NCBI RefSeq assembly: GCF_019063845.1 | Contig: NZ_CP077683.1 | Span: 62,001-126,000, forward strand | Length of the DNA: 64,000 nucleotides | Origin: Geomonas subterranea | GTDB lineage: Bacteria > Desulfobacterota > Desulfuromonadia > Geobacterales > Geobacteraceae | Reading direction: 5' to 3' | Shown: piece by piece, positions 46,868 through 64,000 of the stretch | How the letters are laid out: the number at the start of each line of letters is the position of its first letter | How positions within the stretch are numbered: the first letter of the stretch is position 1 | Translations under genes and position numbers: made by a program | Notes under the pieces: generated by a model | The model's input: only the letters and a program-made list of their open reading frames with translations | Told to the model about the DNA's origin: nothing | The model's database searches: none

Positions 46868-47021
46868 GTCCAATCCTCTTAAATTCGGGGCAAGCGGTCA
46901 AAGAATGGGAAAGAGTCTAGCATAATACTTTTCACATTGGTGAATGTTTTGCGTTATACTTGCGCCTGTCGCGCTGTGTCAATGCTTTTATAAAGCCGGT
47001 TAATGCTTGGAGAGGACACTC

Positions 47022-47342: not shown

Positions 47343-49308
47343 CGGGGTAGGACGAGATGGGGCGGGGCCTGCCGAAGAAGTACCCCTGCATGGCGTCGAG
47401 GTTGAGCTCCTTTAGCATCGCCGCCTGCTCTTCGCTTTCCACCCCCTCGGCCACCACCTTGATGTCGATGCTGTGCGCCACGCTGCAAAGCGAGGCGACG
47501 TAGAACCCGCTGTCCTTCTCCCCGCCAGAAAGCTCCCCGGTGTAGGCCCGGTCGATCTTGACGTACTCCGGGTGCAGCGACTGCAGGTAACCGAGCTTCG
47601 AGAAGCTGCGGCCGTAATGGTCGAGACCGATGCCGTGGCCGCATTCCCGTACCGCGGCGCCGAACTCCCTGATGCGCTGCAGGTGCTGCACCGCGGCGAA
47701 CTCGGAGAACTCGAAGTTCACGTGGGGCGCGCCGCCGGGAAGCGCCTTTAGGAAGGCGTAGAGCCAGCCGCGGAAGGCGTCGTCCTCCAGCGAGGTGGGG
47801 GAGAGGTTGATGGCGATCCGGTCCACCCCCAGGCGGCGGTAGTCGACCTTCAGTGCCTCCTCGATCACCATCCGGTCGATGGAGGAGACCAGCTTCAGCC
47901 GCTCGGCCACCGGCATGAACAGGGCGGCGTCCAGCGCCTCGCCGTTCTCCTGCATGATGCGCGCGAAGAGCTCGAGCTGGAGCACCCTGCGTCCCGCCGC
48001 ATTCTCGACCACCCCCTGCGCGTCCAGCGTGATGCGCCGCTCGTCCAGCGCCCGCACCAGGGCGTCCTTCCAGTGCTGCTGCCCCTGCGGCAGCGTATCC
48101 GTTTCCCCGGTCACCGCCCGCAGCTCCCAGCCGTTGGCCCCTTTTTGCAGCGCCGCGGAGAGCGCGAGGTCCGCCTCGGCCAGAAGCCTCGGCAGCGTGG
48201 TGTTCCCCTGGTAGGTGGCGATCCCCACGTGCCCGATGTTGTCGGTGAGCGCGATCTTCTCCATGGCCACCCGCCCGAGCTGGGCGGCGATCTCGGCGGC
48301 GATGATCCCCCCTTCGGAAGGGGAGGCGTTGGGGAGGAAGATGCCGAAGTCGCCGCCGGTGAGGCGGGAAAGCGCCGTGTCGGCGTAGGCGGCAAGGGAG
48401 CTCGTCAAGAGCGCCGCCACCCGTTTCAGGAGCTCGTCCCCCGCCTGCAGCCCCTTTTTCTGGTTCAGCGCCTCGAGCCCCTGGATCCTCAACAGGAGCA
48501 GCAGCCCGCAGGCGTTCTGGTCCTGCCTCCCCAGGTCCGCGTTCACCTGGCTCTCGAAGAAGCGCCGGTTCCCAAGGAGGGTGACCGGGTCCTGGTAGGC
48601 CCGCTCCTGCAGCCCCTCCGCCCGCGCCGCCTGCTCCTCGAACATCTCCTTCACCTTCACCGTCATCCGGTTCATCGCCTCGACCACACTCTTGAACTCG
48701 CGGGTGCGCGGCAAGGACTCCTGCAGCTGGTACTCCTTGCGGCATAAGGCGTCCGCCTGGCGCTCCACGGCGGCCAGCGGCTTCAAAAGGATCCTGAGCC
48801 CTATCCCCGCCGCGAGGAGCAGGAAGATGGCGCAGGCGGCGAACCAGGCGGTCATGCTGATCACCTCGCTCCAGAGCGTCGCGTAGGCGTAGCCGGGATG
48901 GCTCTTCACCAGGATGGTCCCCCCCTGGTTCCATCCCGCCATGACGTCCGAGGCCGCCTCCGGGGTCTTCACCGGCACCAGCGCCACGAACCACTGCGGC
49001 ACGTCCTCGACCCGGACCGGGAGGGTGCGCTCGATGAGCACCTTGCCGCGCGGGTCGGAGAAGGTGATCCGCTGGTAGTAGCCGCGGTCGAACAGGGCGC
49101 TGATCATCCCCTCCACCACGGTGAGGTCCTTCTGGGCCACGTGGGGCGAGATGGAGAGCGCCAGCGACGTGGCGGTGTCCTGCACGTGGGACTCCAGCTG
49201 GTTGGTCAGGAAGGTCCGGGTGTTGGCGAGCTTCGCGTACCAGGTGCCGGTGAACAGGAGCAAAAAGAGCACGACGGTGAAGATGATGAGCTGCCGGTAC
49301 AGTGTCAT
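47335..49308 (-). CDS. lapD: LapD-type c-di-GMP receptor (degenerate GGDEF/EAL)
   Basis: 657 residues. Two transmembrane helices flank a periplasmic LapD-type domain (MTLYRQLIIFTVVLFLLLFTGTW...LESHVQDTATSLALSISP; a GWNQGG motif near the end). HAMP, a GGDEF-like domain and an EAL-like domain follow. Both catalytic sites are degenerate: GGDF for GGDEF, LELF for EAL, LDHYGRSFS for the DDFGTGYSS loop. This is the pattern of LapD, which binds c-di-GMP and, when bound, sequesters the protease LapG so that the adhesin stays on the cell. It lies 18 bases downstream of lapG. Confidence 0.93.
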   Translation of the reverse strand: MTLYRQLIIFTVVLFLLLFTGTWYAKLANTRTFLTNQLESHVQDTATSLALSISPHVAQKDLTVVEGMISALFDRGYYQRITFSDPRGKVLIERTLPVRVEDVPQWFVALVPVKTPEAASDVMAGWNQGGTILVKSHPGYAYATLWSEVISMTAWFAACAIFLLLAAGIGLRILLKPLAAVERQADALCRKEYQLQESLPRTREFKSVVEAMNRMTVKVKEMFEEQAARAEGLQERAYQDPVTLLGNRRFFESQVNADLGRQDQNACGLLLLLRIQGLEALNQKKGLQAGDELLKRVAALLTSSLAAYADTALSRLTGGDFGIFLPNASPSEGGIIAAEIAAQLGRVAMEKIALTDNIGHVGIATYQGNTTLPRLLAEADLALSAALQKGANGWELRAVTGETDTLPQGQQHWKDALVRALDERRITLDAQGVVENAAGRRVLQLELFARIMQENGEALDAALFMPVAERLKLVSSIDRMVIEEALKVDYRRLGVDRIAINLSPTSLEDDAFRGWLYAFLKALPGGAPHVNFEFSEFAAVQHLQRIREFGAAVRECGHGIGLDHYGRSFSKLGYLQSLHPEYVKIDRAYTGELSGGEKDSGFYVASLCSVAHSIDIKVVAEGVESEEQAAMLKELNLDAMQGYFFGRPRPISSYPVR

Positions 49309-49326: not shown

Positions 49327-50007
49327 TCACAGTCTGTTCTCGGACATCTTTTGGAGAAGATCCTGCCAGAGCCGGAGCCGGCTGGACTTGCCGGCGGCCT
49401 TGCCCGCGCCCCTTTGCTTGGCGAGCCACAGCCCGGAACCGTTGAAGCTCAGGATGGGCATCAGGTCGTTGCGCCTGGAGGCGTGATCTATGGAGTCGAC
49501 CAGGTTGTCGAGCACGAGCGGCTCGGCCTCGGGGGTGCCGTAGTAGGTGAGCACCATGTGGTGGATGTTGTAGCGCAGCGCCTTGACGTAGGTGATGCGG
49601 AGCTTCTCGTCCTCCACCCCCATCGCCTTCAGGGTGAAGTACTTGGCGATGGCGAAGTCCTCGCAGTCCCCCGGCCCCTTGGCCAGGAACTCTATGGGGG
49701 TGGCCCAGTAGTCCTCGACCCCCCAGACGTCCCAGTCGTTGTCGAAGCGGAGCCTCTCGTTGAAGAAACGGTTCACCTTCTCGAGCTTGTCGCGGTCGCC
49801 GCGGCTCTTGTCCCGGGCGATGAGCTCCTCCCAGGCGGTCAGGCGGCGCAGGGCCTCCCTGCCGTACTTCCTCTCGGCCGTCTGCAGCACCGAGCGGTCG
49901 ACGCTGAAGTTGCCGGCGGGAAGCACGGTGCCGGCGAGGAGAAGCGCCGCGAGGAAGGCGGTCAGTGACAGCGATGTCAGTCGTTTCAGGTAGATACCCA
50001 CGTTCAT
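49327..50007 (-). CDS. lapG: LapG periplasmic cysteine protease
   Basis: 226 residues. A signal sequence is followed by a transglutaminase-like (DUF920) domain with KGPGDCEDFAIAKYF (Cys115), NIHHMVLTYY (His150) and LVLDNLVDSI (Asp167). The Cys-His and His-Asp spacings (35 and 17) equal those I recall for the Legionella enzyme. LapG cleaves the N-terminal retention module of LapA-type adhesins to release them. The likely substrate is the adhesin at 59241, which has a PAAG site. No strong Shine-Dalgarno before the ATG. Confidence 0.94.
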   Translation of the reverse strand: MNVGIYLKRLTSLSLTAFLAALLLAGTVLPAGNFSVDRSVLQTAERKYGREALRRLTAWEELIARDKSRGDRDKLEKVNRFFNERLRFDNDWDVWGVEDYWATPIEFLAKGPGDCEDFAIAKYFTLKAMGVEDEKLRITYVKALRYNIHHMVLTYYGTPEAEPLVLDNLVDSIDHASRRNDLMPILSFNGSGLWLAKQRGAGKAAGKSSRLRLWQDLLQKMSENRL

Positions 50008-50104: not shown

Positions 50105-51427
50105 CTACGGTGTTCCGGAGGCCGTGGTCACCCTGCCGTTCTGGTCGGGAGCCTGCAGGCCGAGGGTCGGCAGGAGGCGCGACATCCCGTTCATGATCCG
50201 GTACTCGGCGTACTTCTGGTCGTACTGCGCGTTCACGAGGCTCGCCTTGGCGTTGATGAGTTCGGCCTGGGTGTCGAGGAGGTCGAACATGGTCCTTCTC
50301 CCGATGGACCACTGGGCGGCGAAGGCGTCGGCGGTCTGCCCGGCGGCCTTCACGTAATCGTCGAGGTACTTGACCCGCTCCTGCGCCGAGCGGTTGGCCT
50401 CCCAGGAGAGCCGGATCGACTGCACCGTCTGGCGCTTGGTGTTCTCGAGGATCTCCTGCGCCTCGTACACCTCGCTCTGGGTCTGCCCGATGCGCGCCTT
50501 GTTCCAGCCGCCGTTCAGGATGTTGAAGGTGAGGGTGGCGGTGCCCAGGAACTCCTCGCGGTTGCCGGGGAGGTCGTTGTAATCCTTGAGCCAGCGGTAG
50601 TCGAGGGCCACGTCGAGGCTCGGGTAGAGGAGGCTCTTGGCCGCCTCGTGCTGCGCCGTTCTCTCCTGCACACCCTCGCGGGCGGACTTGAGCGCCTTGT
50701 TGCCCGAAACGGCCAGCTCCTCGGCCTCGTCCTTGGTCCTGGGGAGAAGGGGGGCGACCGACTGGGGCTCGGCGAGCTCGCCGGGGAGGTAGCCGATGAC
50801 CGCCTGGTAGTCGGCGAGGCTGTCGGAGAGGTTGGCCTGGGCCGCGGCGAGGTTGCTTTCCGCCAGCGCCACGCGCCCCTTGACCTGCTCGAAGTCCGCC
50901 CGGCGGTCGACGCCCGACTCGCTTCTGAGCTTCACCTGGTCGTGGATGCGCAGGTGGTTGGTGAGGTTCTCCTGGGCCAGCGCCAGGAGCTTCTCGCTTT
51001 TGAGCACGTTCAGGTACACCTTGGAGGCGACCAGCGCGTTGTTCTCGGCGGAGCTTCCGAGCTGGTACTCCTGGGCCCGGGCCCGGGCCTCCTGGCGCTC
51101 AACCTCGCTTTGGGTGCCGAAGAAGCGGAACACGTTCTGGCGCACGCTCACCATCGCCGTGTTGGGGTAGACGGTGCCGAAGGTCGGTTCGTGCTGGCGC
51201 GTCACCCCGGCCGCCAGCGTGAGGTCCATGGTGGGGAGGTAGCCGGCCTTGGCCTGGCGCACTTCCTTCTCCCGCGCAACCTTGTTGTAGTACTGCGCCC
51301 GCACCTCGGGGTTGGACCGAAGCATGTACTGCACCGCGTCCTGGAGCGTCTCCGCCTGGGCGGCGCCGCTCCCCGAGGCTAACAACCCCAATGCCAATAC
51401 TGTCACTAATTTCCTGGTTCGTGGCAT
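50105..51427 (-). CDS. lapE: TolC-family outer-membrane protein (LapE)
   Basis: 440 residues. A signal peptide (MPRTRKLVTVLALGLLASGSGAAQA) and two outer-membrane-efflux repeats are visible: LQDAVQYMLRSNPEVRAQYYNK, GYLPTMDLTLAAGVTRQ, LYPSLDVALDYRW, GRRTMFDLLDTQAELINAKASLVNAQYD. These are TolC/AggA-type landmarks. It completes the type I export channel with LapB and LapC. First gene of a lapE-lapG-lapD row on the minus strand, divergent from the OmpA-like gene. Confidence 0.93.
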   Translation of the reverse strand: MPRTRKLVTVLALGLLASGSGAAQAETLQDAVQYMLRSNPEVRAQYYNKVAREKEVRQAKAGYLPTMDLTLAAGVTRQHEPTFGTVYPNTAMVSVRQNVFRFFGTQSEVERQEARARAQEYQLGSSAENNALVASKVYLNVLKSEKLLALAQENLTNHLRIHDQVKLRSESGVDRRADFEQVKGRVALAESNLAAAQANLSDSLADYQAVIGYLPGELAEPQSVAPLLPRTKDEAEELAVSGNKALKSAREGVQERTAQHEAAKSLLYPSLDVALDYRWLKDYNDLPGNREEFLGTATLTFNILNGGWNKARIGQTQSEVYEAQEILENTKRQTVQSIRLSWEANRSAQERVKYLDDYVKAAGQTADAFAAQWSIGRRTMFDLLDTQAELINAKASLVNAQYDQKYAEYRIMNGMSRLLPTLGLQAPDQNGRVTTASGTP

Positions 51428-51730: not shown

Positions 51731-54088
51731 TTGAAACGACATGCATTGATGATGATGGCAATGGCGTTGCTCCTTGCCTCCCGCCCGGGACCGTCGGCCG
51801 CAGCCGACGCGCCGCAAGGGGGGAGTCCGGCGGGCAGCAGGGTGGGGACCTTCTCGATGTCCCCGATCGTGGGCGGGGTTTCCTTTGACGGGGAGCAGCA
51901 CCTGGAGACCGCGCCGCTGTTCGGTGTGCGCGCCGGGTACAACTTCACGAAAAACCTCGAGGCCGAGGCGCTCTTCGACTACGCAAAGACCCGCTCGACC
52001 CTGACCGAAAAGAACACGGACTTCATGCGCTACGGGGCCGACCTCTTGTGGAACTTCAGGCCCGACGAGAAGTTCGTACCCAACCTGGCCGCAGGCTACG
52101 CCGGGACCCAGGTGAAATCGCAGACCAAGGGCGCCTTCGGCCTCGGTGGCGGTTTCAAGTACTTCGTGACCGAGGACATGGCCTGGCGCGGCGACGTGAG
52201 AGGGGTCTTCATCGACAACAAGTTCGACCGCTACGCCATCGAGTACACCACCGGGATCTACATCCCCTTCGGCGTCACCCCGCCGGTCGCGAAACTCCCG
52301 GCCCCACCGCCGCCACCCGAGCCGGTGGCCCGGCCGCTCCCCGCGGTGCAGCCGACCCTGAACCTGACCGTCCCCCCGCCGGCGCCGGCCCCGGTACCTG
52401 TGGCCGCTCCCGAGGTCTCCCTGGCGGCGGCGCCCGCCGCCATCAAGAAGGGGGAGAAATCGGTCCTCACCTGGCAGAGCAAGCGCGCCGACAACTGCGA
52501 CATGCGCCCCGATGTCGGCGAGGTGGCCCCGAGCGGTTCGGTGGTCGTGAGCCCGGCGGCCGACACCATCTACGCCCTGACCTGCAGGGGTAAGGGGGGG
52601 ACCGCTTCGGCCAACGCGGCGGTCATGGTGGCCCAGCCGGTGACCCAGGCGGAGAAGCGCTTCTGCAACCAGCCCGCGGTGCTGATGATCAACTTCGACA
52701 CCGACAAGTGGAACGTGAAGCCGCAGTACCATGCCGAGCTGAAGACGGTGGGGGACTTCCTGAACGAGTTCCCCGAGGCCTACGGCGAGATCTCCGGGCA
52801 CACCGACGGCACCGCCAGCGCCCCGTACAACCAGAGGCTCTCCGAGCGGCGCGCCCAGTCGGTTCGCGACTACATCGTGAAGAACTTCAACATCGATCCC
52901 AAGCGGCTGACCGCCAAGGGGTACGGCAAGACGAAGCCGGTGGCGACCAACAAGACCGCCGTGGGACGCGCGAAGAACCGGCGCATCGAGGCGAACCTCG
53001 TCTGCCAGAAAAACGGTGCCGCCACGGCGCCGGCAGCCCAGACGGTCGCACCCGCAAAGGGCTCGACCAAGGGCGCTGCAGCGAAAAAAGGTGTTCCTGG
53101 AAAAAAGCCGGTAGCCCTGGTGCCAGCGCAAGGTAGCGTCGCCGTTCAAGGTGACGTTCCTCCGGCGCAGCGCCAGGGCGAACCCGAAGCACGTATTTTC
53201 CCGCAGGGAGCCGGTCCGGGTGCGAGCGCATCCGGGTCGGCCCTCCTGCCCGCGGCACAAAGAAAGGGGGAGGAGGTTTCCCGCTACTTCCCCGCCGCCG
53301 CAGCACCCGAACTGAAGGAGGGGGCCGTGCCCCCTCCGCTTCCCGAGGCCAGGCGCGTTCAGGAGCCTCCGGTCGCCTACCGCGACCAGGCCGTGCCGCC
53401 CCCCCCCGTGACCGTGGCGGTCCCGGGAGCGCTCCCCGCCGGGGAACTCTCCCCGCAGGCGGCGCCGCTGGCGGAGGGAGCGCAGCCCGCGCCTTTGCTT
53501 ACGTCCTCCGCGCCGCCACCCCCGCTTCCCGGGGCGCAAAGAATTAAACAGGCAGCCCTGCCTATTCCCGACACCCCCGCCACCTCAGCGCCGACCGCGC
53601 TCCCCTCGACCGCCGCCGCGCCGGCCGTACCTCCCCTGGCTGCCGTACCCGACGCAGTACCCGTCGCCTCCGCGCTCAGAAAGCAGGAGCCCGAAGCTCC
53701 CGCTCCCGATGAAGCGCCCTTCGTCTTGAAGGCGGCGACACCCACCCCCGTGCCCGATGGCAGGATCGCCCTGACCGGCATCACCATCGACAAGGACGGC
53801 CTCAGTCTGTTCACGAGCGGCAAGGTGAACGAGTTCAGCCTGATCACCATGGTGGAGCCCTTCAGCCTGGTTATCGACCTCTACGGAGCGGTGAACGGGA
53901 TCGGCCTTCCCAAGGCGCCGGTGGAGAAATTCGACCTCACCAACGTTCGTTTCAGAGAATTCCCCGACCACCTCCAGATCACCCTCGATGCCGGCCGGGA
54001 GGAAATCATCCCCTACCGCAGTTACAGGACCGACACCGGGTTGAGGATCAACATCAAGCCGAGAAGCAGTCACCACATAGGCCCCTGA
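51731..54088 (+). CDS. OmpA-family outer-membrane protein with C-terminal AMIN-like domain
   Basis: 785 residues from a TTG with GGAGAGG upstream. A signal peptide is followed by an eight-strand-type barrel (VGTFSMSPIVGGVSFDGEQH to YTTGIYIPFGV), a Pro-rich linker, a small Ig-like segment (LTWQSKRADNCDMRPDVG), and an OmpA peptidoglycan-binding domain (FDTDKWNVKPQYHAELKTVGDFL, ISGHTDGTAS, NRRIEANL). A long Pro/Ala-rich region ends in an AMIN-like domain (ITIDKDGLSLFTSGKVNEFSLITMVEPFSLVIDLYG). OmpA-like proteins occur beside BpfA/LapA-type adhesins, but the OmpA-AMIN combination is unusual. First gene of the putative energy-transducing operon. Confidence 0.88.
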   Translation: MKRHALMMMAMALLLASRPGPSAAADAPQGGSPAGSRVGTFSMSPIVGGVSFDGEQHLETAPLFGVRAGYNFTKNLEAEALFDYAKTRSTLTEKNTDFMRYGADLLWNFRPDEKFVPNLAAGYAGTQVKSQTKGAFGLGGGFKYFVTEDMAWRGDVRGVFIDNKFDRYAIEYTTGIYIPFGVTPPVAKLPAPPPPPEPVARPLPAVQPTLNLTVPPPAPAPVPVAAPEVSLAAAPAAIKKGEKSVLTWQSKRADNCDMRPDVGEVAPSGSVVVSPAADTIYALTCRGKGGTASANAAVMVAQPVTQAEKRFCNQPAVLMINFDTDKWNVKPQYHAELKTVGDFLNEFPEAYGEISGHTDGTASAPYNQRLSERRAQSVRDYIVKNFNIDPKRLTAKGYGKTKPVATNKTAVGRAKNRRIEANLVCQKNGAATAPAAQTVAPAKGSTKGAAAKKGVPGKKPVALVPAQGSVAVQGDVPPAQRQGEPEARIFPQGAGPGASASGSALLPAAQRKGEEVSRYFPAAAAPELKEGAVPPPLPEARRVQEPPVAYRDQAVPPPPVTVAVPGALPAGELSPQAAPLAEGAQPAPLLTSSAPPPPLPGAQRIKQAALPIPDTPATSAPTALPSTAAAPAVPPLAAVPDAVPVASALRKQEPEAPAPDEAPFVLKAATPTPVPDGRIALTGITIDKDGLSLFTSGKVNEFSLITMVEPFSLVIDLYGAVNGIGLPKAPVEKFDLTNVRFREFPDHLQITLDAGREEIIPYRSYRTDTGLRINIKPRSSHHIGP

Positions 54089-54165
54089 CCGGCAGCGCAT
54101 GCCGCTTGCGTCGGAGCCCCACGATACGATGCTCTAAGTAGCTCATCCGTAAGGAGGAGTCTGAC

Positions 54166-54696
54166 ATGGACCACGTTATTGCATTGCGATGGAAACTGGC
54201 TGTCGTAGTGACGGGATTGGTGTCTCTACTTGCCGCGCCCGCGGTGCTCGCCGCCGACCCCCCGCCGCAGGAAGCACCCACGGAGCAGGCGAACGATCTC
54301 GGCCTGGAACTGAGGCTGCAGACGGTGAAGAAGGACCTCCTGGTCATGCTCAACTTCGCCGAGCACTTCATCGCCAGCGGCGAGACCAAGACCGCGGCGC
54401 AGCTCCAGGCCCCCCTCGACGACTACCTGCGCAGGCACGCCGACTACCTGGTGACGCAGGCGGTGGACGGCTCCAACATCGAGATGACCCAGCTCTCCGC
54501 CGAGATCGCGCTGGTGAAGACACGCCTTCTGATCGTGCTCAACTACCGCGACGACGCCGGCAGCGTCCTCACCGAGATGAAGCGGCTCTACGCTCCCTAC
54601 CAGAAGATGTCGGTGCAGCTCCAGGGGAAGACCACCACGCTGGACGAGGCCATACGCCAGCTGGACAGCGACCTCGCGCGCATCGCCAGGAAATAA
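54166..54696 (+). CDS. Secreted helical protein of unknown function
   Basis: 176 residues. A signal peptide (LAVVVTGLVSLLAAPAVLA) is followed by an all-helical domain (LGLELRLQTVKKDLLVMLNFAEHFIASGETKTAAQLQAPLDDYLRRHADYL...LDEAIRQLDSDLARIAR). I do not recognise the family. It is predicted to be periplasmic. AAGGAGGAG precedes the ATG. It lies 77 bases after the OmpA-like gene and 19 bases before the ExbB-like gene, so it is part of the same operon. Confidence 0.8.
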   Translation: MDHVIALRWKLAVVVTGLVSLLAAPAVLAADPPPQEAPTEQANDLGLELRLQTVKKDLLVMLNFAEHFIASGETKTAAQLQAPLDDYLRRHADYLVTQAVDGSNIEMTQLSAEIALVKTRLLIVLNYRDDAGSVLTEMKRLYAPYQKMSVQLQGKTTTLDEAIRQLDSDLARIARK

Positions 54697-54715
54697 CCGC
54701 TAAGGAGCATCCGCC

Positions 54716-55291
54716 ATGGACATTCTGGGCCTCATCACCATCAACCCCAACAGCTTCAACATCTGGTCGCTGCGCATCTCGCTCACCCTGACCACCAGCA
54801 TCTTCGTCATCGCCATGATCCTGGCGGTGCGGGCGTTTTTGCACACGAAGGCACTGGACCACAAGCACCTCGACGGCATCAAGGACCAGCACGCCACACC
54901 AGAGGACAGCCTTGCCGAGAGCGTGGCGAAGATGCTCTGGGCCACGAGCCAAAGCGACAACACGACCGGAGCCGCGGCCCCCAAGGAGTTCCTCTACGAC
55001 GCCACCCGCGAGGTGGCGCAGAACAACTTCAACGGCACCTTCGTGAACCGCATCTACATGTTCGCGAACCTCCTCCCCCCCATTGGCCTTTGGGGGACTG
55101 TGGCGGGGATGATCGTGATCTTTCTCTACACCGGGGACCCGGGGAGCGCCATCAACAACGGCGCCATCGGGACGAAGCTCTGGTCCACCTATTTCGCGCT
55201 CATGTACTACGTGCTCCTGCAGGCGATCTGCGTCGTCCTGGATGTGATGGCGAAGCGCTCCATCAACCGCGGCCTGCAGGTGAAGATCTAG
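54716..55291 (+). CDS. MotA/TolQ/ExbB-like proton-channel protein
   Basis: 191 residues with three predicted transmembrane helices: IWSLRISLTLTTSIFVIAMILAV, FANLLPPIGLWGTVAGMIVIFLYTG and ALMYYVLLQAICVVLDVMA. The second contains the family motif resembling LLGLLGTVxGMI, and a cytoplasmic region lies between helices 1 and 2, as in ExbB/TolQ. The next gene is ExbD-like, which strongly supports the call. Such proteins form a pentamer that uses the proton gradient to drive a periplasmic partner. It is shorter than E. coli ExbB (244). Confidence 0.75.
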   Translation: MDILGLITINPNSFNIWSLRISLTLTTSIFVIAMILAVRAFLHTKALDHKHLDGIKDQHATPEDSLAESVAKMLWATSQSDNTTGAAAPKEFLYDATREVAQNNFNGTFVNRIYMFANLLPPIGLWGTVAGMIVIFLYTGDPGSAINNGAIGTKLWSTYFALMYYVLLQAICVVLDVMAKRSINRGLQVKI

Positions 55292-55300
55292 GAGGGGACC

Positions 55301-55771
55301 ATGCGCACGGTGGGAACGTCCCGCAACCAGTGGCTCATCTCGTTTACCGATGTCGCCTTCCTGCTCCTTTTGGTTTTCACCCAGATGGCGCGCATGGACA
55401 CCTCCAGCAGCCAGGTGGCGGAGATGCAGCTCCCCGCCCCGGTGGTGGCGAAGAGTCCCGAACTGGTGGCGATGCAGTCCAACCCCGACTACCACCAGCT
55501 TTTGGTGGAAAAGCACGGCGCGAGGCCCTACCGCCTGGTGCACATCGTGCGGGGGAGGGAGACGGCGAGGACCGATTCCCTTTCCTACGACGAGCTCTGC
55601 GCGGCGCTCAAGGGGCTGCAGGGGGACCGTGACCACCCGCGCCCCGTGGTGGTGCCGCTTCCGGAATCCTACAGCAGCGATCTTTTGTCGGCGGCCGCGG
55701 TGGTGAGCAAGTACTGGAACTCGAACGGCCTCGCGGTGGTGCACACCTCGCGCACCGGGGACAAGCCATGA
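55301..55771 (+). CDS. ExbD/TolR-like protein
   Basis: 156 residues. A short cytoplasmic N-terminus and a single transmembrane helix carry an acidic residue in the right place (WLISFTDVAFLLLLVFTQMA, Asp17), the proton-carrying Asp of ExbD/TolR. A periplasmic domain of about 115 residues follows, longer in its first part than ExbD and not obviously similar. It starts 9 bases after the ExbB-like gene and its stop overlaps the next start (ATGA), as expected of a complex made in fixed ratio. Confidence 0.75.
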   Translation: MRTVGTSRNQWLISFTDVAFLLLLVFTQMARMDTSSSQVAEMQLPAPVVAKSPELVAMQSNPDYHQLLVEKHGARPYRLVHIVRGRETARTDSLSYDELCAALKGLQGDRDHPRPVVVPLPESYSSDLLSAAAVVSKYWNSNGLAVVHTSRTGDKP

Positions 55772-56868
55772 CCCTGCGCATCCAGAACGCCTGCGGCCAT
55801 GGGGGCACGCGGCTCAGGCACATCCTGGTCTGCGCCGAGCATGAGCTGCGCCCTCCGGTCCCCCTGTGGCTGCGCCTTTTGGCGGTGTCGGCGCTGGTCC
55901 TGGTCGCCTTTTGCGTGAGCCGCTTCAAGATGCCCGGCGCGCCGGTATCAAAGCGCACCATCATGGACGTGAGCCGGCTGGAGCTGCAGGCACCTCCGGA
56001 CAAGCCCAGAAAGGCTGCGCCCGTCGAGAAACCGGTGCACGTGGAGCCCCCGCGCATCGTGTACGCCCTCGACGCCAAGCCGCCGGCCTACCGCCCCCCG
56101 GAGCGCCCCGGTGACGCGGTGAAGCAAAAGAGAGCGCCGCTCAGGCACGAGGTCGACTACAAAGCGGAACTGCAGCGCCCGGCCATCGCCCGCGACCTCG
56201 GCTACCAGAGCGGGTCCGAGGTCCCTCTGTACCCGGCGGTCGCCCGCGAACGAAAGGGTGCGGAAGGTTTCGACGCCGCCGCGAGCGACGCCCCGGCCAG
56301 GCTTCCGGCGACCCGGCTTCGGAAGGAGGCGGGGAGCGCCGAGGTGGGGGCGCGCCCCACGCCGAAGAGCACCTACATCTACCGGGTGCGGGGCGGTCCG
56401 GGAAATCCGGTCGCTGCCGCCGACCAGCCGGTCGCGCTGCCCCAGCGCCCGACCCGCGCCGTCGAGGTGGGGGGGAGTGCGGCGCCCCCGCGGGTCGCGG
56501 CGGTGAGGAGCGCGCCGGAGGTGACCATCGAGGAGCCCAGGGGGGCGCCGGTCGCGTCGCCCAAACAGCGCAGCAAGAGCCCGAGCGGCGGTGGTGCGGG
56601 GGGGTCCGAGGTGGCGCTCGCGCGCGGTGTGTCCCTCATGAGCCTCAAGATCTGCGACAGCGCGCTGCAGCAGGAGGAAGCGATCAAGGCGGTTTTGAGC
56701 GTGGTGGGGTCGCGCTCAAGCTGCACCAGTGACAAAGGTGAGTTCCAGTTCAAAGGGACCAAACGAGTGTCGTCCTTCAACCTCATCATCTTCCCGTCCG
56801 GGGGACGAGAGCCATCCCAGCGATGCGAGGAGTTGGATCATGCCTACGACTGCCTTAAGAAGAACTGA
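55768..56868 (+). CDS. TonB/TolA-like energy transducer (divergent)
   Basis: 366 residues. A cytoplasmic N-terminus of about 35 residues and one transmembrane helix (VPLWLRLLAVSALVLVAFCVSRF) are followed by a long Pro/Arg/Ala-rich periplasmic stretch (about 60-280) and a small C-terminal domain with four Cys (CDSALQQEEAIKAVL, SSCTSDKGEFQF, RCEELDHAYDCLKKN). The architecture is that of TonB or TolA, but the C-terminal domain is not recognisably either. Position directly after ExbB- and ExbD-like genes, with overlap, supports an energy-transducer role (inference). It overlaps the next gene by 29 bases. Confidence 0.65.
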   Translation: MTLRIQNACGHGGTRLRHILVCAEHELRPPVPLWLRLLAVSALVLVAFCVSRFKMPGAPVSKRTIMDVSRLELQAPPDKPRKAAPVEKPVHVEPPRIVYALDAKPPAYRPPERPGDAVKQKRAPLRHEVDYKAELQRPAIARDLGYQSGSEVPLYPAVARERKGAEGFDAAASDAPARLPATRLRKEAGSAEVGARPTPKSTYIYRVRGGPGNPVAAADQPVALPQRPTRAVEVGGSAAPPRVAAVRSAPEVTIEEPRGAPVASPKQRSKSPSGGGAGGSEVALARGVSLMSLKICDSALQQEEAIKAVLSVVGSRSSCTSDKGEFQFKGTKRVSSFNLIIFPSGGREPSQRCEELDHAYDCLKKN

Positions 56869-58816
56869 CGCCAGACGGATCATCGCATTCATCTTCTGCT
56901 GCCTGCTGTGCCTGGTGCTGGCGGCCGCCCCCTGCTGGGGCGCTCCCAGGAAAAAGGGGGGACATGCCGCGCCGGCCAAGAAGGAGCACAAGACGGCGGC
57001 CGTTCAGGCACAGGCCGTCCCCCAGATCAAGGAGTGGGGGCCGTACCTCGACGTCGCCTACGAGCTCACCTACTGGGACAAGAACGAGATCAAGGAGTGG
57101 CGCGAAAAGCGCGACCAGGAGATCGGCGAACCCCTCGCCTCCTACATCGCCACCTGGAACGGCAAGCTCATGTCGGGGCAGAAAGGGGAGCAGCCGCAGC
57201 TTTTCCGCGACCGCGACTACCTGAGGCTCGCCATCGCCCAGACCGTCGACTACCTGCAAAGCGACGCACCGGAGAGCCTCGCCGCCGCGGCCAAGACCAT
57301 GGAGAGCCTGAAGGGCAAGGCCTCCATGCCCGAAATCGCGTACTGGTCCGGCATGGTGAAGGCGCTGCAGGCCCTGGAGCGCGATGACGCCGAGGATTTC
57401 GTCACCCAGGTCTACGGCATCTGGAACGGCTCCATCCTCTACATCGAGAAGAACGAGATCGCCACCGGCGCGACCAGCGGTTCCGTCCCGACCAACACCC
57501 CCTTCTACTACCGCAACCTCATCAACCTGGTGGTGAACCGCGCCATCATCGCGAGAAAGCTCGACGGCCTGAACGCGCTGGGCCCCCTGTTCGTCATGAT
57601 GAACGACAGGAACCTCGGGGAGAAGGACAGCGAGGGGAAGTACACGAAGACGCTGGTGCAGCGGATCGTGGACGGGCTGAACGCGCCCGATTCAGACCGC
57701 TACCGGCTCAACTTCACCGTCGCGGCCATCGAGTCCAAGCGCCTGCAGCAGGTGGCGAGCGCCAAGCTCGACGCCGAGGGGATGACCGAGGGGGTGCAAA
57801 AGACCTACGAGCGGGCGCGGACCTACAACGACCTCTGTTTCAAGTGGGCGGCAGGGCCCCGCTCGAGCGGCGTCGTCATGGCGGCGGTGGACTACCTGGA
57901 CATGACCAGCTTCGCGATACCGCGCCTGGCCGACAACGAGAACGCCGCCTCCTACAAGTTCTTCTCCACCCTGCCGGACCAGGAGGGGCGTACCGCGCTC
58001 CTGAAGTCGATGGCGATCTTCAACGATATCGCCCCCTATTCCGCGGGAGGATGGGAGCGCGCCGGTTACCAGAGCCGGGAGCTGTATCTCAAGTCGTCGC
58101 ACCGGCTCTGGCGGGCCATCATGGAACTGGCGCTTTGGACCGGCGACTATTACCTGGTGAAGCTGAACACGACCCAGGACTCGCAGAATATCCAGAGCTA
58201 CGCCACCTCGATGCAGATGGCGCTCAACTCGTACCTGAACTTCCTCACCGCCCAGCAGGGGAGGGGATTCAACGACGTGATACCTGATTCCGCCTATTTC
58301 GGGGCCTTCGAAGCGAGCGACAAGGTTTCCTACGCCTACCGCAAGGTGAGCGAGTTCAGTACCGACAATGGCGCCTACAACCTGTGGTTCACGCACCGCC
58401 TGCTCTCGGCCGAGCTGTTCCCGCTCTCGTTGCGCGAGGTGCGTCAGACCTCCGCCACCCTCAAGAAGGACGGGCGCTACAACCTGTACCTCGACTACTA
58501 CCTGCCGCTGGCGAGCCGGATCAAGCAGTCCCCCGCCATCAAGAAGTGGGTGGGCGCGCAGCGTCCGGAGACGGCGACGGCGAGCCTTGCCTACATCACC
58601 GCGGTGGACAAGCTCTTCGCCGGCACCGCGACCGCTGATGCCCCCTCGGACACCCAGTTGATCGCCTCGTTCCAGAGCATGCGCGAGGAGATGCAGAGAA
58701 ACCCGGACCACCCGACCCACAACCTTTTGAAGCTCTTCTACCTCGAAGAGATCCAGAAGAGTTCCAACTTCACCAAGCTGGTCAAGGAGCCCAACCGGCT
58801 GGACCGGCCGTTCTGA
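56840..58816 (+). CDS. Large secreted protein of unknown family
   Basis: 658 residues from the ATG at 56840, preceded by GAGGAG; the frame is open further upstream. A signal peptide with an N-terminal hydrophobic helix (IIAFIFCCLLCLVLAAAPCWG) is followed by a basic linker and a long, mainly helical globular region (VQRIVDGLNAPDSDRYRLNFTVAAIE, YYLVKLNTTQDSQNIQSYATSMQMALNSYLNFL, YNLYLDYYLPLASRIKQSPAIKKWVGAQ). The Cys in CCLLC could be a lipidation site, but no clear lipobox is seen. I do not recognise the family. Last gene of the operon before the adhesin, so a role in adhesin display or cell-envelope passage is possible. Confidence 0.8.
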   Translation: MPTTALRRTDARRIIAFIFCCLLCLVLAAAPCWGAPRKKGGHAAPAKKEHKTAAVQAQAVPQIKEWGPYLDVAYELTYWDKNEIKEWREKRDQEIGEPLASYIATWNGKLMSGQKGEQPQLFRDRDYLRLAIAQTVDYLQSDAPESLAAAAKTMESLKGKASMPEIAYWSGMVKALQALERDDAEDFVTQVYGIWNGSILYIEKNEIATGATSGSVPTNTPFYYRNLINLVVNRAIIARKLDGLNALGPLFVMMNDRNLGEKDSEGKYTKTLVQRIVDGLNAPDSDRYRLNFTVAAIESKRLQQVASAKLDAEGMTEGVQKTYERARTYNDLCFKWAAGPRSSGVVMAAVDYLDMTSFAIPRLADNENAASYKFFSTLPDQEGRTALLKSMAIFNDIAPYSAGGWERAGYQSRELYLKSSHRLWRAIMELALWTGDYYLVKLNTTQDSQNIQSYATSMQMALNSYLNFLTAQQGRGFNDVIPDSAYFGAFEASDKVSYAYRKVSEFSTDNGAYNLWFTHRLLSAELFPLSLREVRQTSATLKKDGRYNLYLDYYLPLASRIKQSPAIKKWVGAQRPETATASLAYITAVDKLFAGTATADAPSDTQLIASFQSMREEMQRNPDHPTHNLLKLFYLEEIQKSSNFTKLVKEPNRLDRPF

Positions 58817-58986: not shown

Positions 58987-59020
58987 AAAAAAAGCCCTCC
59001 GGGTTACGGAGGGCTTTTTT
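58987..59020. terminator. Bidirectional terminator before the adhesin gene
   Basis: AAAAAAGCCCTCCG and CGGAGGGCTTTTTT pair around GGTTA, with A and T runs on both sides. It ends the OmpA/ExbBD operon and isolates the adhesin transcript. Confidence 0.92.
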
Positions 59021-59109
59021 CGTAGGATGAGAGGAAGCCGTACTGGCAGACAAATTTTATTGCCATGACAGCAGATGTGTGACAGTGACTGAAGAAATAT
59101 GAGATGGGT

Positions 59110-59156: not shown

Positions 59157-59240
59157 GATTGTGCCTCAGAGATATCTTTACCATAACCAAATTTAGGCAG
59201 CTCCCTTCACGTCTCACTATCAAATAAACGGAGAATGGTC

Positions 59241-62200
59241 ATGGCACAGAACAATCAAGCAGCAGCGGCGGGCGCCGGGAACCAGGTAGTCGGCAAGGTT
59301 GTGATTCTGTATGGAACGGTGAAAGCGGTGTCCCCGGATGGCGCCGTCCGTCTGCTCATGCCGAACAGCCCGATCTACGCGAACGATCACATCGTCACCG
59401 AGAGCGACGGCAGCGTGTCGATCGTCTTTGACGGAGCCCAGGGGAACCAGTTGGATCTGGGCCGGATGATGAACGTCGCCATCGACCATGACGTTTACGG
59501 CACCGTCATGTCGGGGGATACAACCGATACCGTAGCGGAGGTGGAGCAGATTCAGCAGGCTCTCGCCACCGGTGATCAGCCCATCGAACTGGAAGCCCCG
59601 GCAGCGGGCGGTCCCGCCGATGCGGGCGGCACCCATCCGGTCTTCATCGTCACCCCGACCGGCGAGGAAGTGCTGCCGACGGGTGGGGTAACCACCACAG
59701 GTGTGACCTTCGGGACGACAGGTGCAATCGAGGGGGCTGTTACAGTAGCTACTACCTCACCAGTTCCCCCCGCAGGGCCTGGCGTAGGTTCAGATCACGG
59801 TTCTGTCACGGAAGATAGCTCAAATCCGACTCTTTCTACGACAGGAACACTAACGGTTGCAGATACCTTTGGCAACCAATACAGCATCAACACAGCTGTT
59901 GCACCTGTTGCAAGTGAGGGTGCACTTGGGAGCATCTCGATTGATAGTGCGGGGCACTGGACTTACAGTGTGAACAATGCCGCCGTTCAGTACCTTGGCG
60001 CTGGCGAGCCCAAAATAGAGACCTTCACCGTACAAGCCGCCGACGGCACCAGCCATGAAATAGTGATCACGATAACTGGAACCAACGACGTGCCTGTGAT
60101 CGACGCGGAGCACTCGATCGCGACGGGGAGTGTGTCCGAAGGTGACCCCGCACACGGCACAGGAATGGCGGCAAGTGGCGTGGTCAGCTTTACTGACGTA
60201 GACCAGGGCGATCTGCACACGCTGACGGTCACGACAGGCCCGGCTCATGGCGTAGCTACCGTCGATGCCGACGGGACGTGGCACTACACGGTTACCGACA
60301 GCGGGGTCGTGGATGCGCTTCCGGAGGGTCAGGTCCTCACTGACTCCTTCATGGTGCAGGTCGCTGACAACCATGGCGGTACGGCGACGCAGCTGGTGAC
60401 GCTGCAGATCACCGGTACCAACGACGCTCCTGTGATCGACGTAGTGAAGACGGTTGCCACCGGCTCGGTCTCCGAGGGTGATGATGGTTCTCTGAGGACG
60501 ACGAGCGGTGTGGTCAGCTTCACTGACGTTGACCAGGGCGATCTGCACACGCTGACGGTGACGACAGGCCCGGCTCATGGCGTAGCTACCGTCGATGCCG
60601 ACGGGACGTGGCACTACACGGTTACCGACAGCGGGGTCGTGGATGCGCTTCCGGAGGGTCAGGTCCTCACTGACTCCTTCATGGTGCAGGTCGCTGACAA
60701 CCATGGCGGTACGGCGACGCAGCTGGTGACGCTGCAGATCACCGGTACCAACGACGCTCCTGTGATCGACGTAGTGAAGACGGTTGCCACCGGCTCGGTC
60801 TCCGAGGGTGATGATGGTTCTCTGAGGACGACGAGCGGTGTGGTCAGCTTCACTGACGTTGACCAGGGCGATCTGCACACGCTGACGGTGACGACAGGCC
60901 CGGCTCATGGCGTAGCTACCGTCGATGCCGACGGGACGTGGCACTACACGGTTACCGACAGCGGGGTCGTGGATGCGCTTCCGGAGGGTCAGGTCCTCAC
61001 TGACTCCTTCATGGTGCAGGTCGCTGACAACCATGGCGGTACGGCGACGCAGCTGGTGACGCTGCAGATCACCGGTACCAACGACGCTCCTGTGATCGAC
61101 GTAGTGAAGACGGTTGCCACCGGCTCGGTCTCCGAGGGTGATGATGGTTCTCTGAGGACGACGAGCGGTGTGGTCAGCTTCACTGACGTTGACCAGGGCG
61201 ATCTGCACACGCTGACGGTGACGACAGGCCCGGCTCATGGCGTAGCTACCGTCGATGCCGACGGGACGTGGCACTACACGGTTACCGACAGCGGGGTCGT
61301 GGATGCGCTTCCGGAGGGTCAGGTCCTCACTGACTCCTTCATGGTGCAGGTCGCTGACAACCATGGCGGTACGGCGACGCAGCTGGTGACGCTGCAGATC
61401 ACCGGTACCAACGACGCTCCTGTGATCGACGTAGTGAAGACGGTTGCCACCGGCTCGGTCTCCGAGGGTGATGATGGTTCCCTGAGGACGACGAGCGGTG
61501 TGGTCAGCTTCACTGACGTTGACCAGGGCGATCTGCACACGCTGACGGTGACGACAGGCCCGGCTCATGGCGTAGCTACCGTCGATGCCGACGGGACGTG
61601 GCACTACACGGTTACCGACAGCGGGGTCGTGGATGCGCTTCCGGAGGGTCAGGTCCTCACTGACTCCTTCATGGTGCAGGTCGCTGACAACCATGGCGGT
61701 ACGGCGACGCAGCTGGTGACGCTGCAGATCACCGGTACCAACGACGCTCCTGTGATCGACGTAGTGAAGACGGTTGCCACCGGCTCGGTCTCCGAGGGTG
61801 ATGATGGTTCCCTGAGGACGACGAGCGGTGTGGTCAGCTTCACTGACGTTGACCAGGGCGATCTGCACACGCTGACGGTGACGACAGGCCCGGCTCATGG
61901 CGTAGCTACCGTCGATGCCGACGGGACGTGGCACTACACGGTTACCGACAGCGGGGTCGTGGATGCGCTTCCGGAGGGTCAGGTCCTCACTGACTCCTTC
62001 ATGGTGCAGGTCGCTGACAACCATGGCGGTACGGCGACGCAGCTGGTGACGCTGCAGATCACCGGTACCAACGACGCTCCTGTGATCGACGTAGTGAAGA
62101 CGGTTGCCACCGGCTCGGTCTCCGAGGGTGATGATGGTTCCCTGAGGACGACGAGCGGTGTGGTCAGCTTCACTGACGTTGACCAGGGCGATCTGCACAC

Positions 62201-64000
62201 GCTGACGGTGACGACAGGCCCGGCTCATGGCGTAGCTACCGTCGATGCCGACGGGACGTGGCACTACACGGTTACCGACAGCGGGGTCGTGGATGCGCTT
62301 CCGGAGGGTCAGGTCCTCACTGACTCCTTCATGGTGCAGGTCGCTGACAACCATGGCGGTACGGCGACGCAGCTGGTGACGCTGCAGATCACCGGTACCA
62401 ACGACGCTCCTGTGATCGACGTAGTGAAGACGGTTGCCACCGGCTCGGTCTCCGAGGGTGATGATGGTTCCCTGAGGACGACGAGCGGTGTGGTCAGCTT
62501 CACTGACGTTGACCAGGGCGATCTGCACACGCTGACGGTGACGACAGGCCCGGCTCATGGCGTAGCTACCGTCGATGCCGACGGGACGTGGCACTACACG
62601 GTTACCGACAGCGGGGTCGTGGATGCGCTTCCGGAGGGTCAGGTCCTCACTGACTCCTTCATGGTGCAGGTCGCTGACAACCATGGCGGTACGGCGACGC
62701 AGCTGGTGACGCTGCAGATCACCGGTACCAACGACGCTCCTGTGATCGACGTAGTGAAGACGGTTGCCACCGGCTCGGTCTCCGAGGGTGATGATGGTTC
62801 TCTGAGGACGACGAGCGGTGTGGTCAGCTTCACTGACGTTGACCAGGGCGATCTGCACACGCTGACGGTGACGACAGGCCCGGCTCATGGCGTAGCTACC
62901 GTCGATGCCGACGGGACGTGGCACTACACGGTTACCGACAGCGGGGTCGTGGATGCGCTTCCGGAGGGTCAGGTCCTCACTGACTCCTTCATGGTGCAGG
63001 TCGCTGACAACCATGGCGGTACGGCGACGCAGCTGGTGACGCTGCAGATCACCGGTACCAACGACGCTCCTGTGATCGACGTAGTGAAGACGGTTGCCAC
63101 CGGCTCGGTCTCCGAGGGTGATGATGGTTCTCTGAGGACGACGAGCGGTGTGGTCAGCTTCACTGACGTTGACCAGGGCGATCTGCACACGCTGACGGTG
63201 ACGACAGGCCCGGCTCATGGCGTAGCTACCGTCGATGCCGACGGGACGTGGCACTACACGGTTACCGACAGCGGGGTCGTGGATGCGCTTCCGGAGGGTC
63301 AGGTCCTCACTGACTCCTTCATGGTGCAGGTCGCTGACAACCATGGCGGTACGGCGACGCAGCTGGTGACGCTGCAGATCACCGGTACCAACGACGCTCC
63401 TGTGATCGACGTAGTGAAGACGGTTGCCACCGGCTCGGTCTCCGAGGGTGATGATGGTTCTCTGAGGACGACGAGCGGTGTGGTCAGCTTCACTGACGTT
63501 GACCAGGGCGATCTGCACACGCTGACGGTGACGACAGGCCCGGCTCATGGCGTAGCTACCGTCGATGCCGACGGGACGTGGCACTACACGGTTACCGACA
63601 GCGGGGTCGTGGATGCGCTTCCGGAGGGTCAGGTCCTCACTGACTCCTTCATGGTGCAGGTCGCTGACAACCATGGCGGTACGGCGACGCAGCTGGTGAC
63701 GCTGCAGATCACCGGTACCAACGACGCTCCTGTGATCGACGTAGTGAAGACGGTTGCCACCGGCTCGGTCTCCGAGGGTGATGATGGTTCCCTGAGGACG
63801 ACGAGCGGTGTGGTCAGCTTCACTGACGTTGACCAGGGCGATCTGCACACGCTGACGGTGACGACAGGCCCGGCTCATGGCGTAGCTACCGTCGATGCCG
63901 ACGGGACGTGGCACTACACGGTTACCGACAGCGGGGTCGTGGATGCGCTTCCGGAGGGTCAGGTCCTCACTGACTCCTTCATGGTGCAGGTCGCTGACAA
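59241..64000 (+). CDS. Giant LapA-type adhesin (N-terminal part; runs off window)
   Basis: The frame from the ATG at 59241 stays open to the window end (1,586 codons). Residues 15-100 form a retention module (VVGKVVILYGTVKAVSPDGAVRLLMPNSPIYANDHIVTESDGSVSIVFDGAQGNQLDLGR) like that of LapA, which plugs the TolC-like pore. PAAG at residues 120-123 (59598-59609) is a candidate LapG cleavage site. A linker and a single divergent VCBS unit (about 190-292) follow, then near-identical 110-residue VCBS repeats. There is no N-terminal signal peptide, as expected for type I export with a C-terminal signal outside the window. GGAG precedes the ATG. Confidence 0.92.
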   Translation, partial: MAQNNQAAAAGAGNQVVGKVVILYGTVKAVSPDGAVRLLMPNSPIYANDHIVTESDGSVSIVFDGAQGNQLDLGRMMNVAIDHDVYGTVMSGDTTDTVAEVEQIQQALATGDQPIELEAPAAGGPADAGGTHPVFIVTPTGEEVLPTGGVTTTGVTFGTTGAIEGAVTVATTSPVPPAGPGVGSDHGSVTEDSSNPTLSTTGTLTVADTFGNQYSINTAVAPVASEGALGSISIDSAGHWTYSVNNAAVQYLGAGEPKIETFTVQAADGTSHEIVITITGTNDVPVIDAEHSIATGSVSEGDPAHGTGMAASGVVSFTDVDQGDLHTLTVTTGPAHGVATVDADGTWHYTVTDSGVVDALPEGQVLTDSFMVQVADNHGGTATQLVTLQITGTNDAPVIDVVKTVATGSVSEGDDGSLRTTSGVVSFTDVDQGDLHTLTVTTGPAHGVATVDADGTWHYTVTDSGVVDALPEGQVLTDSFMVQVADNHGGTATQLVTLQITGTNDAPVIDVVKTVATGSVSEGDDGSLRTTSGVVSFTDVDQGDLHTLTVTTGPAHGVATVDADGTWHYTVTDSGVVDALPEGQVLTDSFMVQVADNHGGTATQLVTLQITGTNDAPVIDVVKTVATGSVSEGDDGSLRTTSGVVSFTDVDQGDLHTLTVTTGPAHGVATVDADGTWHYTVTDSGVVDALPEGQVLTDSFMVQVADNHGGTATQLVTLQITGTNDAPVIDVVKTVATGSVSEGDDGSLRTTSGVVSFTDVDQGDLHTLTVTTGPAHGVATVDADGTWHYTVTDSGVVDALPEGQVLTDSFMVQVADNHGGTATQLVTLQITGTNDAPVIDVVKTVATGSVSEGDDGSLRTTSGVVSFTDVDQGDLHTLTVTTGPAHGVATVDADGTWHYTVTDSGVVDALPEGQVLTDSFMVQVADNHGGTATQLVTLQITGTNDAPVIDVVKTVATGSVSEGDDGSLRTTSGVVSFTDVDQGDLHTLTVTTGPAHGVATVDADGTWHYTVTDSGVVDALPEGQVLTDSFMVQVADNHGGTATQLVTLQITGTNDAPVIDVVKTVATGSVSEGDDGSLRTTSGVVSFTDVDQGDLHTLTVTTGPAHGVATVDADGTWHYTVTDSGVVDALPEGQVLTDSFMVQVADNHGGTATQLVTLQITGTNDAPVIDVVKTVATGSVSEGDDGSLRTTSGVVSFTDVDQGDLHTLTVTTGPAHGVATVDADGTWHYTVTDSGVVDALPEGQVLTDSFMVQVADNHGGTATQLVTLQITGTNDAPVIDVVKTVATGSVSEGDDGSLRTTSGVVSFTDVDQGDLHTLTVTTGPAHGVATVDADGTWHYTVTDSGVVDALPEGQVLTDSFMVQVADNHGGTATQLVTLQITGTNDAPVIDVVKTVATGSVSEGDDGSLRTTSGVVSFTDVDQGDLHTLTVTTGPAHGVATVDADGTWHYTVTDSGVVDALPEGQVLTDSFMVQVADNHGGTATQLVTLQITGTNDAPVIDVVKTVATGSVSEGDDGSLRTTSGVVSFTDVDQGDLHTLTVTTGPAHGVATVDADGTWHYTVTDSGVVDALPEGQVLTDSFMVQVAD
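60180..64000 (+). repeat. Tandem 330-base VCBS repeats
   Basis: Eleven complete units and part of a twelfth, each exactly 330 bases (110 residues), begin at 60180 and every 330 bases to 63810. The protein unit runs VVSFTDVDQGDLHTLTVTTG to TATQLVTLQITGTNDAPVID and on to SVSEGDDGSLRTTSG. The first unit differs at a few positions. From 60510 onward I see only one variable base, a synonymous T/C at 60491 + 330n. VCBS repeats extend adhesins from the cell surface. Confidence 0.93.

Follow-up and report, generated by a model that had tools for sequence, protein, structure and literature searches.

Organization of the six-gene operon

The stretch analyzed here, hereafter the window, comprises 64,000 nucleotides of Geomonas subterranea (assembly GCF_019063845.1, contig NZ_CP077683.1, positions 62,001 to 126,000) and contains six co-directional plus-strand genes, designated A to F, that lie between lapBCDEG-type genes and the gene of a giant adhesin. 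This placement, described in an initial annotation of the window, agrees with the gene coordinates. The six genes probably encode an uncharacterized Tol-like, proton-driven machine that spans the cell envelope, is spread over the class Desulfuromonadia and has been built into a Lap adhesin island in Geomonas. The features of the operon are as follows (aa, amino acids).

51731..54088, + strand: A, outer-membrane beta-barrel with an OmpA domain and an AMIN-type C-terminus (785 aa, TTG start; PF13505, PF00691)
54166..54696, + strand: B, small secreted helical protein (176 aa)
54716..55291, + strand: C, divergent ExbB/TolQ motor subunit by sequence (191 aa; PF01618, T128/T158)
55301..55771, + strand: D, divergent ExbD/TolR subunit by sequence (156 aa; PF02472, D17)
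55768..56868, + strand: E, transducer-like protein with a transmembrane helix, a linker and a C-terminal domain (alignment and structure model)
56840..58816, + strand: F, secreted all-helical (alpha-solenoid) protein (658 aa; structure model)
about 58988..59021, + strand: intrinsic terminator behind F (plain by sequence; RNA fold)

The genes are separated by 77 (A-B), 19 (B-C) and 9 bases (C-D) and overlap by 4 (D/E) and 29 bases (E/F), so that the largest gap agrees with the proposal of a single operon based on overlaps or gaps of less than 80 bases. The strong terminator predicted to close the operon is likewise supported, as the hairpin at about 58988-59021 folds with -25.1 kcal/mol (z -4.4; 56 bases folded); a consensus terminator scan missed this hairpin, although it is evident in the sequence. 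In two comparisons of the ratio of nonsynonymous to synonymous substitution rates (dN/dS), purifying selection is observed on all six genes and is strongest on F, the best conserved of the six (0.06 and 0.11). The values are 0.08-0.18 for B-D and 0.28-0.31 for A and E, and those of the neighboring lapD, lapG and lapE are 0.14-0.29.

The predicted motor pair C and D

C matches PF01618 (MotA_ExbB) with E=4.8e-4 and 20.3 bits (cut-off 22.9), and D matches PF02472 (ExbD) with E=1.7e-3 and 18.9 bits (cut-off 25.4). A homologous, distant C protein, that of locus L126, clears the PF01618 cut-off with 32.9 bits. In alignments with E. coli TolQ, the TolQ of the host genome and E. coli TolR, residues T128 (in the GT motif of the second transmembrane helix) and T158 (in the third) of C align with the threonine pair of TolQ, and D17 of D aligns with the membrane aspartate of TolR; all three residues are invariant in 11/11 alignment rows. 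Because the distant C passes the Pfam cut-off and the ion-path residues align and are retained, C and D are, as judged from their sequences, divergent members of the MotA/ExbB/TolQ and ExbD/TolR families and not chance matches. The earlier designation of the two proteins as ExbB-like and ExbD-like is thus borne out by the profile search, with matches below the cut-offs, together with the retained residues. Profile searches of the PDB with C and D retrieved only weak matches: TolQ, MotA and PomA (E values of 0.4-0.8 with C), as well as a MotB chimera and an unrelated chain.

Two other PF01618 matches are present in the genome, one in a TolQ-TolA-TolB-Pal cluster (C1:4.39 Mb) and one beside flagellar genes, with the neighbors identified by eye. 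The module is therefore distinct from both the Tol-Pal system of the cell and its flagellar stator.

Proteins E, F, B and A

The structure model of E consists of a transmembrane helix (residues 33-52), a long, proline-rich linker of low confidence (residues 134-284 with a predicted local distance difference test score, pLDDT, below 50) and, from about residue 286, a domain of about 80 residues (pLDDT about 93) in the order helix-strand-strand-strand-helix. In this model, E shares the layout of TolA and TonB, namely a single transmembrane helix, a long linker and a small C-terminal domain. Four cysteines are invariant in an alignment of 15 E sequences and mostly retained in an alignment of 23.

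F, previously described as a secreted protein of 658 residues, has that length and is predicted to be secreted and all-helical; its model is a solenoid with a mean pLDDT of 82.7 and a predicted template modeling score of 0.78. Neither E nor F matches any Pfam or NCBIfam model, F lacks a TPR match in Pfam, and fold searches with F returned no specific match. B has no family match in Pfam or NCBIfam; in the loci of family f122, it carries a lipoprotein-type signal, as seen by eye.

Pfam recognizes the OMP_b-brl (PF13505) and OmpA (PF00691) domains in the window A, and no AMIN domain was found in it by Pfam, even when the C-terminus was searched separately. However, residues 603-773 are 39.9% identical to the A protein of locus L038, in which residues 278-362 match AMIN with 43.7 bits, and the end of the window A is called AMIN-type because of this homology. 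In the earlier name "OmpA-AMIN", the first half is therefore confirmed directly, whereas the second holds by homology to L038. No TolB was found among A-F with Pfam or NCBIfam, and the OmpA domain is located in a barrel protein rather than in a Pal lipoprotein.

Distribution of the module in the class

A search with one C sequence over genome contigs yielded 15 loci, and F profiles were used next. The F profile matches 6/395 genomes sampled across the phylum and 38/277 genomes of the class (16/82 genera), many of which are incomplete; in one of the 38 (G532), the match covers just 113 positions. A total of 33 loci was tabulated, of which 29 are uncut and four (L135, L136, L140 and L142) are cut by contig ends. 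Rows left out are L034 (the same stretch as L033), L083-L085, L138 and L139 (the same places as L038, L040, L039, L036 and L037) and L123 (a short end piece).

The order B-C-D-E-F on one strand is observed in 29/29 uncut loci, in 26 of them with all five genes recognized by profile. The D profile has no match in L093 and L094, where ExbD is identified by Pfam (L093) or by alignment (L094). A was found in 18/33 loci. Among eight A proteins scanned from outside the lap loci, the barrel occurs in all and AMIN in five (L036, L038, L039, L042 and L140); TSP_3 repeats replace AMIN in L126 and L130, and the A of L135 has neither. The OmpA domain is present in the lap-linked A and in 0/8 of these other proteins.

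In family f46 (L093:821-3414 and L094:4281-6886), E and F are preceded by a different, doubled motor that consists of TolQ, TolR and a fusion of the two, with B-like genes also there; in L093, the motor proteins reach 88.6 and 84.4 bits with PF01618 and 32.6 and 56.9 bits with PF02472. As the motor is replaced while E and F are kept, E and F therefore form the constant core and the motor is exchangeable. In G420, a Geomonas genome that lacks LapG (L082:11645-14185, - strand), an AMIN domain (30.2 bits) forms the end of F, a fusion that ties F to A. In family f122, a tail-specific protease of the Prc type (TSP_NTD, S41 and DUF3340 in Pfam) lies upstream of the module in 8/8 loci that reach that far (L126-L132 and L141), which points to work in the envelope. 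Additionally, five loci of Geobacteraceae other than Geomonas (L038, L039, L040, L042 and L043) have another F-like gene directly behind F, with a longer product (called at 861-996 aa).

Lap genes adjoin the module in 7/7 loci of lap-bearing Geomonas and in 0/26 other loci, with the flanks covered on contigs that are in some cases only 5 kb long; because of these short contigs, association is better judged from the genome-wide count. PF06035 (LapG-type) is present in 59/277 genomes of the class, one of which (G598) scores below the cut-off. Both F and PF06035 are present in 13 genomes, 11 of them Geomonas, and in the other two (G551 and G552) they are on different contigs. In 25 of the 38 F-bearing genomes, PF06035 has no match. 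Outside Geomonas, both occur in 2/258 genomes, with 4.8 expected (Fisher p 0.18). The module is thus found largely away from adhesin loci, which largely corresponds to the refuting case named in the initial annotation (a module equally common away from such loci), and the claim that it is dedicated to the adhesin is not supported: the observation at this locus was right and useful, but the dedication read into it was too narrow. Because the gene order is kept in all uncut loci and most genomes with F lack LapG, B-C-D-E-F is, by its sequence record, a unit older than its position at the lap locus, and the link between the module and Lap is a lineage-specific joining.

Linkage to lap genes within Geomonas

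Among 19 Geomonas genomes, 11 have LapG, and in all of these F lies no more than 10 kb away on the same contig; seven have neither, and G420 has F only. The corresponding Fisher test (p 1.6e-4) takes no account of common ancestry and is given no weight as evidence. In the window, the block is flanked by a CAP gene (42034-42645) and an ExeA-type gene (about 67903). In the lap-less genomes G411 and G417, these two flanking genes are about 200 bases apart, and neither lap nor module genes were found across the 20 kb retrieved; in the corresponding stretch of G420 the only flank gene found is a permease. The closed-up flanks therefore indicate that about 25 kb was gained or lost as one block. In the F tree, in which some deeper joins are flagged as long branches, the lap-linked Geomonas sequences join L037 of family f3 (100/100) and then L036 of family f2 (98/100), and G420 and the remaining Geobacteraceae are placed separately; judged by sequence relationships, this placement fits transfer. 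In Geomonas oryzae S43, the same stretch of lap genes and module lies near the ends of two contigs (L033 and L034), which may reflect a duplication or an assembly overlap.

A model of the machine and the observations against it

In the proposed machine, C and D would assemble into the proton channel and motor, located in the inner membrane, as suggested by their family and key residues. E, by its predicted topology, would be anchored in the inner membrane, cross the periplasm with a disordered linker and present a cysteine-rich C-terminal domain, acting as the transducer of the motor. The alpha-solenoid F and the small protein B may serve as periplasmic scaffolds that connect E with A, and the F-AMIN fusion of G420 supports the link between F and A. 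OmpA and AMIN domains bind the cell wall, and A could accordingly hold its barrel in the outer membrane with its OmpA and AMIN parts on the wall. The system would extend over the class and some other families of the phylum, often with an outer-membrane A nearby. In Geomonas, the machine is joined to the LapBCDEG-adhesin block, A has an extra OmpA domain, and the machine would most likely steady, place or tension the adhesin held at the outer membrane. An action of the module on the adhesin is plausible, given the linkage and by analogy with SiiAB and SO4321 (discussed below).

Several observations weigh against this model. The window C and D both score below the Pfam cut-offs, and A and E, with dN/dS of about 0.3, show the weakest constraint of the set. 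E has no Pfam or NCBIfam match, so that no TolA_C or TonB_C was found; hhalign gave a probability of 0.1% against TolA, with a TolA profile of two sequences only, and fold searches returned nothing specific. The earlier description of E as "TonB/TolA-like" is therefore retained for its topology, whereas a TolA or TonB domain was not detected. The SHLS motif, with its histidine in the transmembrane helix, is the motor-binding motif of TolA/TonB transducers (PMC12204202). This histidine is absent from the predicted transmembrane helix of the window E; among 19 N-termini compared, Ser-xxx-His stretches lie close to the transmembrane helix in L136 and L079. Additionally, A was not found in 15/33 loci, and the A proteins of L126, L130 and L135 lack an AMIN match. 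Reading frames also appear interrupted in places: E in L127 (7580-8890), where the E profile has no match and the frame ends differently, F in L128 (9069-11092), which is split into two frames, and A in Geomonas diazotrophica (L041:6975-9361), which is split into two overlapping frames of 569 and 226 aa by a sequencing error or a real break. L127 and L128 come from near-complete genomes of 1 and 2 contigs. Finally, the linkage in Geomonas may be hitchhiking within one island.

Alternative explanations

The last point leads to the alternative that the module is a general envelope system carried along in the Geomonas lap island and functionally unconnected to the adhesin. The distribution of the module, which is independent of lap, its Prc neighbor in family f122 and the single event required for gain or loss of the block are all consistent with this explanation. 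It is nevertheless doubtful, since the lap-linked A differs by its OmpA domain, the module is present in all 11 lap-bearing species and the genes are under purifying selection.

A motor dedicated to the adhesin, in the manner of SiiAB, is the reverse case: proton force acting through E on A or F would keep the LapA-type adhesin in place, put it under tension or free it, and this would be the sole task of the motor in Geomonas. The module accompanies lap in 11/11 Geomonas genomes with LapG and is absent from 7/8 without it, lap and module come and go as one block, and the OmpA domain is confined to the lap-linked A. SiiAB provides a precedent (PMC12607715), and in the bpf cluster of Shewanella the OmpA-like SO4321 has a role in biofilm formation (PMC4523816). 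However, the 25 of 38 module genomes without LapG, the lack of association outside the genus and G420, which has the module without LapG in the same genus, make this explanation unlikely. The initial proposal, in which proton force was transmitted through a TonB-like protein to A or F for the benefit of the adhesin, is accordingly kept in part: C and D are relatives of motor proteins with ion-path residues, a chain from E to A and F between the inner and outer membranes is plausible, and the linkage exists in the genus, but the dedication to the adhesin is not supported.

The module may instead be a relative of the Agl/Glt gliding machine of Myxococcus or of its "core complex", reported as one Geobacter cluster by Luciano et al. 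2011. The parts are alike in outline, with an ExbB/ExbD motor, a protein of TonB topology, helical periplasmic proteins and a barrel (PMC3169522), and family f46 has two TolQ and two TolR domains. Nevertheless, this relationship is improbable, as the window has one ExbB and one ExbD instead of AglR plus AglQ and AglS, Pfam finds no FHA or TonB domain in E and no TPR in F, and the only two further PF01618 proteins of the genome are in Tol-Pal and flagellar surroundings. An import system of the TonB type serving an outer-membrane receptor, suggested by the gene order ExbB-ExbD-TonB-like, is very improbable because Pfam and NCBIfam detect no TonB_C domain in E and no TonB-dependent receptor was noticed beside the module, with no family search aimed at receptors made.

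Comparison with known systems

The module resembles Tol-Pal (TolQ-TolR-TolA-TolB-Pal-CpoB) in its ExbB/ExbD-type pair, a transducer with a single transmembrane helix and a long linker, an OmpA-type outer-membrane partner and a helical periplasmic protein, all in one operon. It differs in that E has no recognizable TolA domain, TolB is missing and A is a barrel with an AMIN-type end; moreover, the genome has a separate Tol-Pal system of its own (identities by eye).

In SiiAB of Salmonella pathogenicity island SPI-4, a proton channel of the Mot/Exb/Tol family is similarly encoded with type I secretion and a giant adhesin (PMC12607715). The window shows this type of arrangement, with a predicted proton-channel pair encoded next to a type I secretion system and its giant adhesin, and lap genes lie beside the module in 7 fetched Geomonas loci. 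By its description, SiiAB has two genes instead of six, and SiiA itself holds the cell-wall-binding part; deletion of SiiAB spares the secretion of SiiE and lowers invasion (PMC12607715). The initial annotation noted that a dedicated proton-driven transducer does not belong to the Lap system as described. A proton channel for a giant adhesin secreted by a type I system is already known in SiiAB for SiiE (PMC12607715).

Motor-coupled transducers in which a vWA domain replaces the TolA/TonB domain adjoin TolQ/TolR-like and TPR genes (PMC12204202). They share with the module a transmembrane helix, a disordered linker, a C-terminal domain other than a recognizable TolA/TonB domain and a partner gene with helical repeats, whereas the C-terminal domain of E has about 80 residues and four cysteines. 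The words Desulfo, Geobacter and Deltaproteobacteria are absent from the main text of PMC12204202. In the Agl/Glt system of Myxococcus xanthus, helical proteins of the periplasm also link a proton motor to proteins of the outer membrane, but by its description the motor has three genes (AglRQS, one ExbB and two ExbD) and GltG carries FHA and TonB domains (PMC3169522). In the Bpf adhesin locus, the OmpA-domain protein SO4321 lies beside LapG/LapD-type genes and has a biofilm role; motor genes are not named in the part of that source considered here (PMC4523816), whereas the module has C and D. Among the matches listed for published literature on ExbB/ExbD or TolQ/TolR with Lap, giant adhesins or Geobacter relatives, no title describes the module, and ExbB and OmpA are absent from the main texts of two Desulfovibrio adhesin papers (PMC13090378, PMC11784015).

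Import, the linkage of wall and membrane, gliding and, in Salmonella, the function of a giant adhesin are all driven by proton motors of the ExbB/ExbD type. The module would be a further system of this kind, spread over one class, with a transducer and a solenoid that have no Pfam or NCBIfam model and with a changeable motor. Tentatively, Geomonas may have evolved, independently of SiiAB in Salmonella, a proton-driven machine that acts on a LapG-controlled adhesin, in which the E/F core was rebuilt, with OmpA added to A, to hold or tension it. If so, the Lap system would gain an energy input beside its cyclic di-GMP (c-di-GMP) switch, and the E/F transducer core would run elsewhere on other motors and for other envelope tasks. 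Geomonas offers a genetically simple case for whether retention-module adhesins require energy. A second, separate case would help, as the way in which SiiAB applies proton force to SiiE is described as unclear (PMC12607715).

Neighboring lap genes and the adhesin

Pfam and NCBIfam matches support the presence of lapB, lapC, lapD, lapE and lapG beside the module, in agreement with the initial annotation.

43318..44676, - strand: lapC-type membrane-fusion protein of type I secretion (PF13437 HlyD_3, 75 bits)
44690..46873, - strand: lapB-type ABC transporter (PF00664 ABC_membrane, PF00005 ABC_tran, weak C39 domain)
47335..49308, - strand: lapD-type c-di-GMP receptor (PF16448 LapD_MoxY_N, 152 bits; GGDEF, EAL)
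49327..50007, - strand: lapG-type cysteine protease (PF06035, 60 bits; NF045674, 263 bits, E=1.5e-78, below the cut-off of 320)
50105..51427, - strand: lapE, TolC-type outer-membrane channel (TIGR01844, 242 bits, above the cut-off)
59235..64000, continuing beyond the window, + strand: RTX adhesin with cadherin/Ig-type repeats (2819 aa in total in the assembly)

The adhesin contains PAAG at residue 122, a motif of the type cleaved by LapG, and RTX repeats close to the C-terminus. Its repeats of about 100 residues are almost identical to one another (window 60100-64000), and the assembled length of the adhesin may therefore be wrong. Directly behind the adhesin, the ExeA-like gene encodes an AAA ATPase with a peptidoglycan-binding domain (L080:9404-11050; about 67903-69549 in window numbering).

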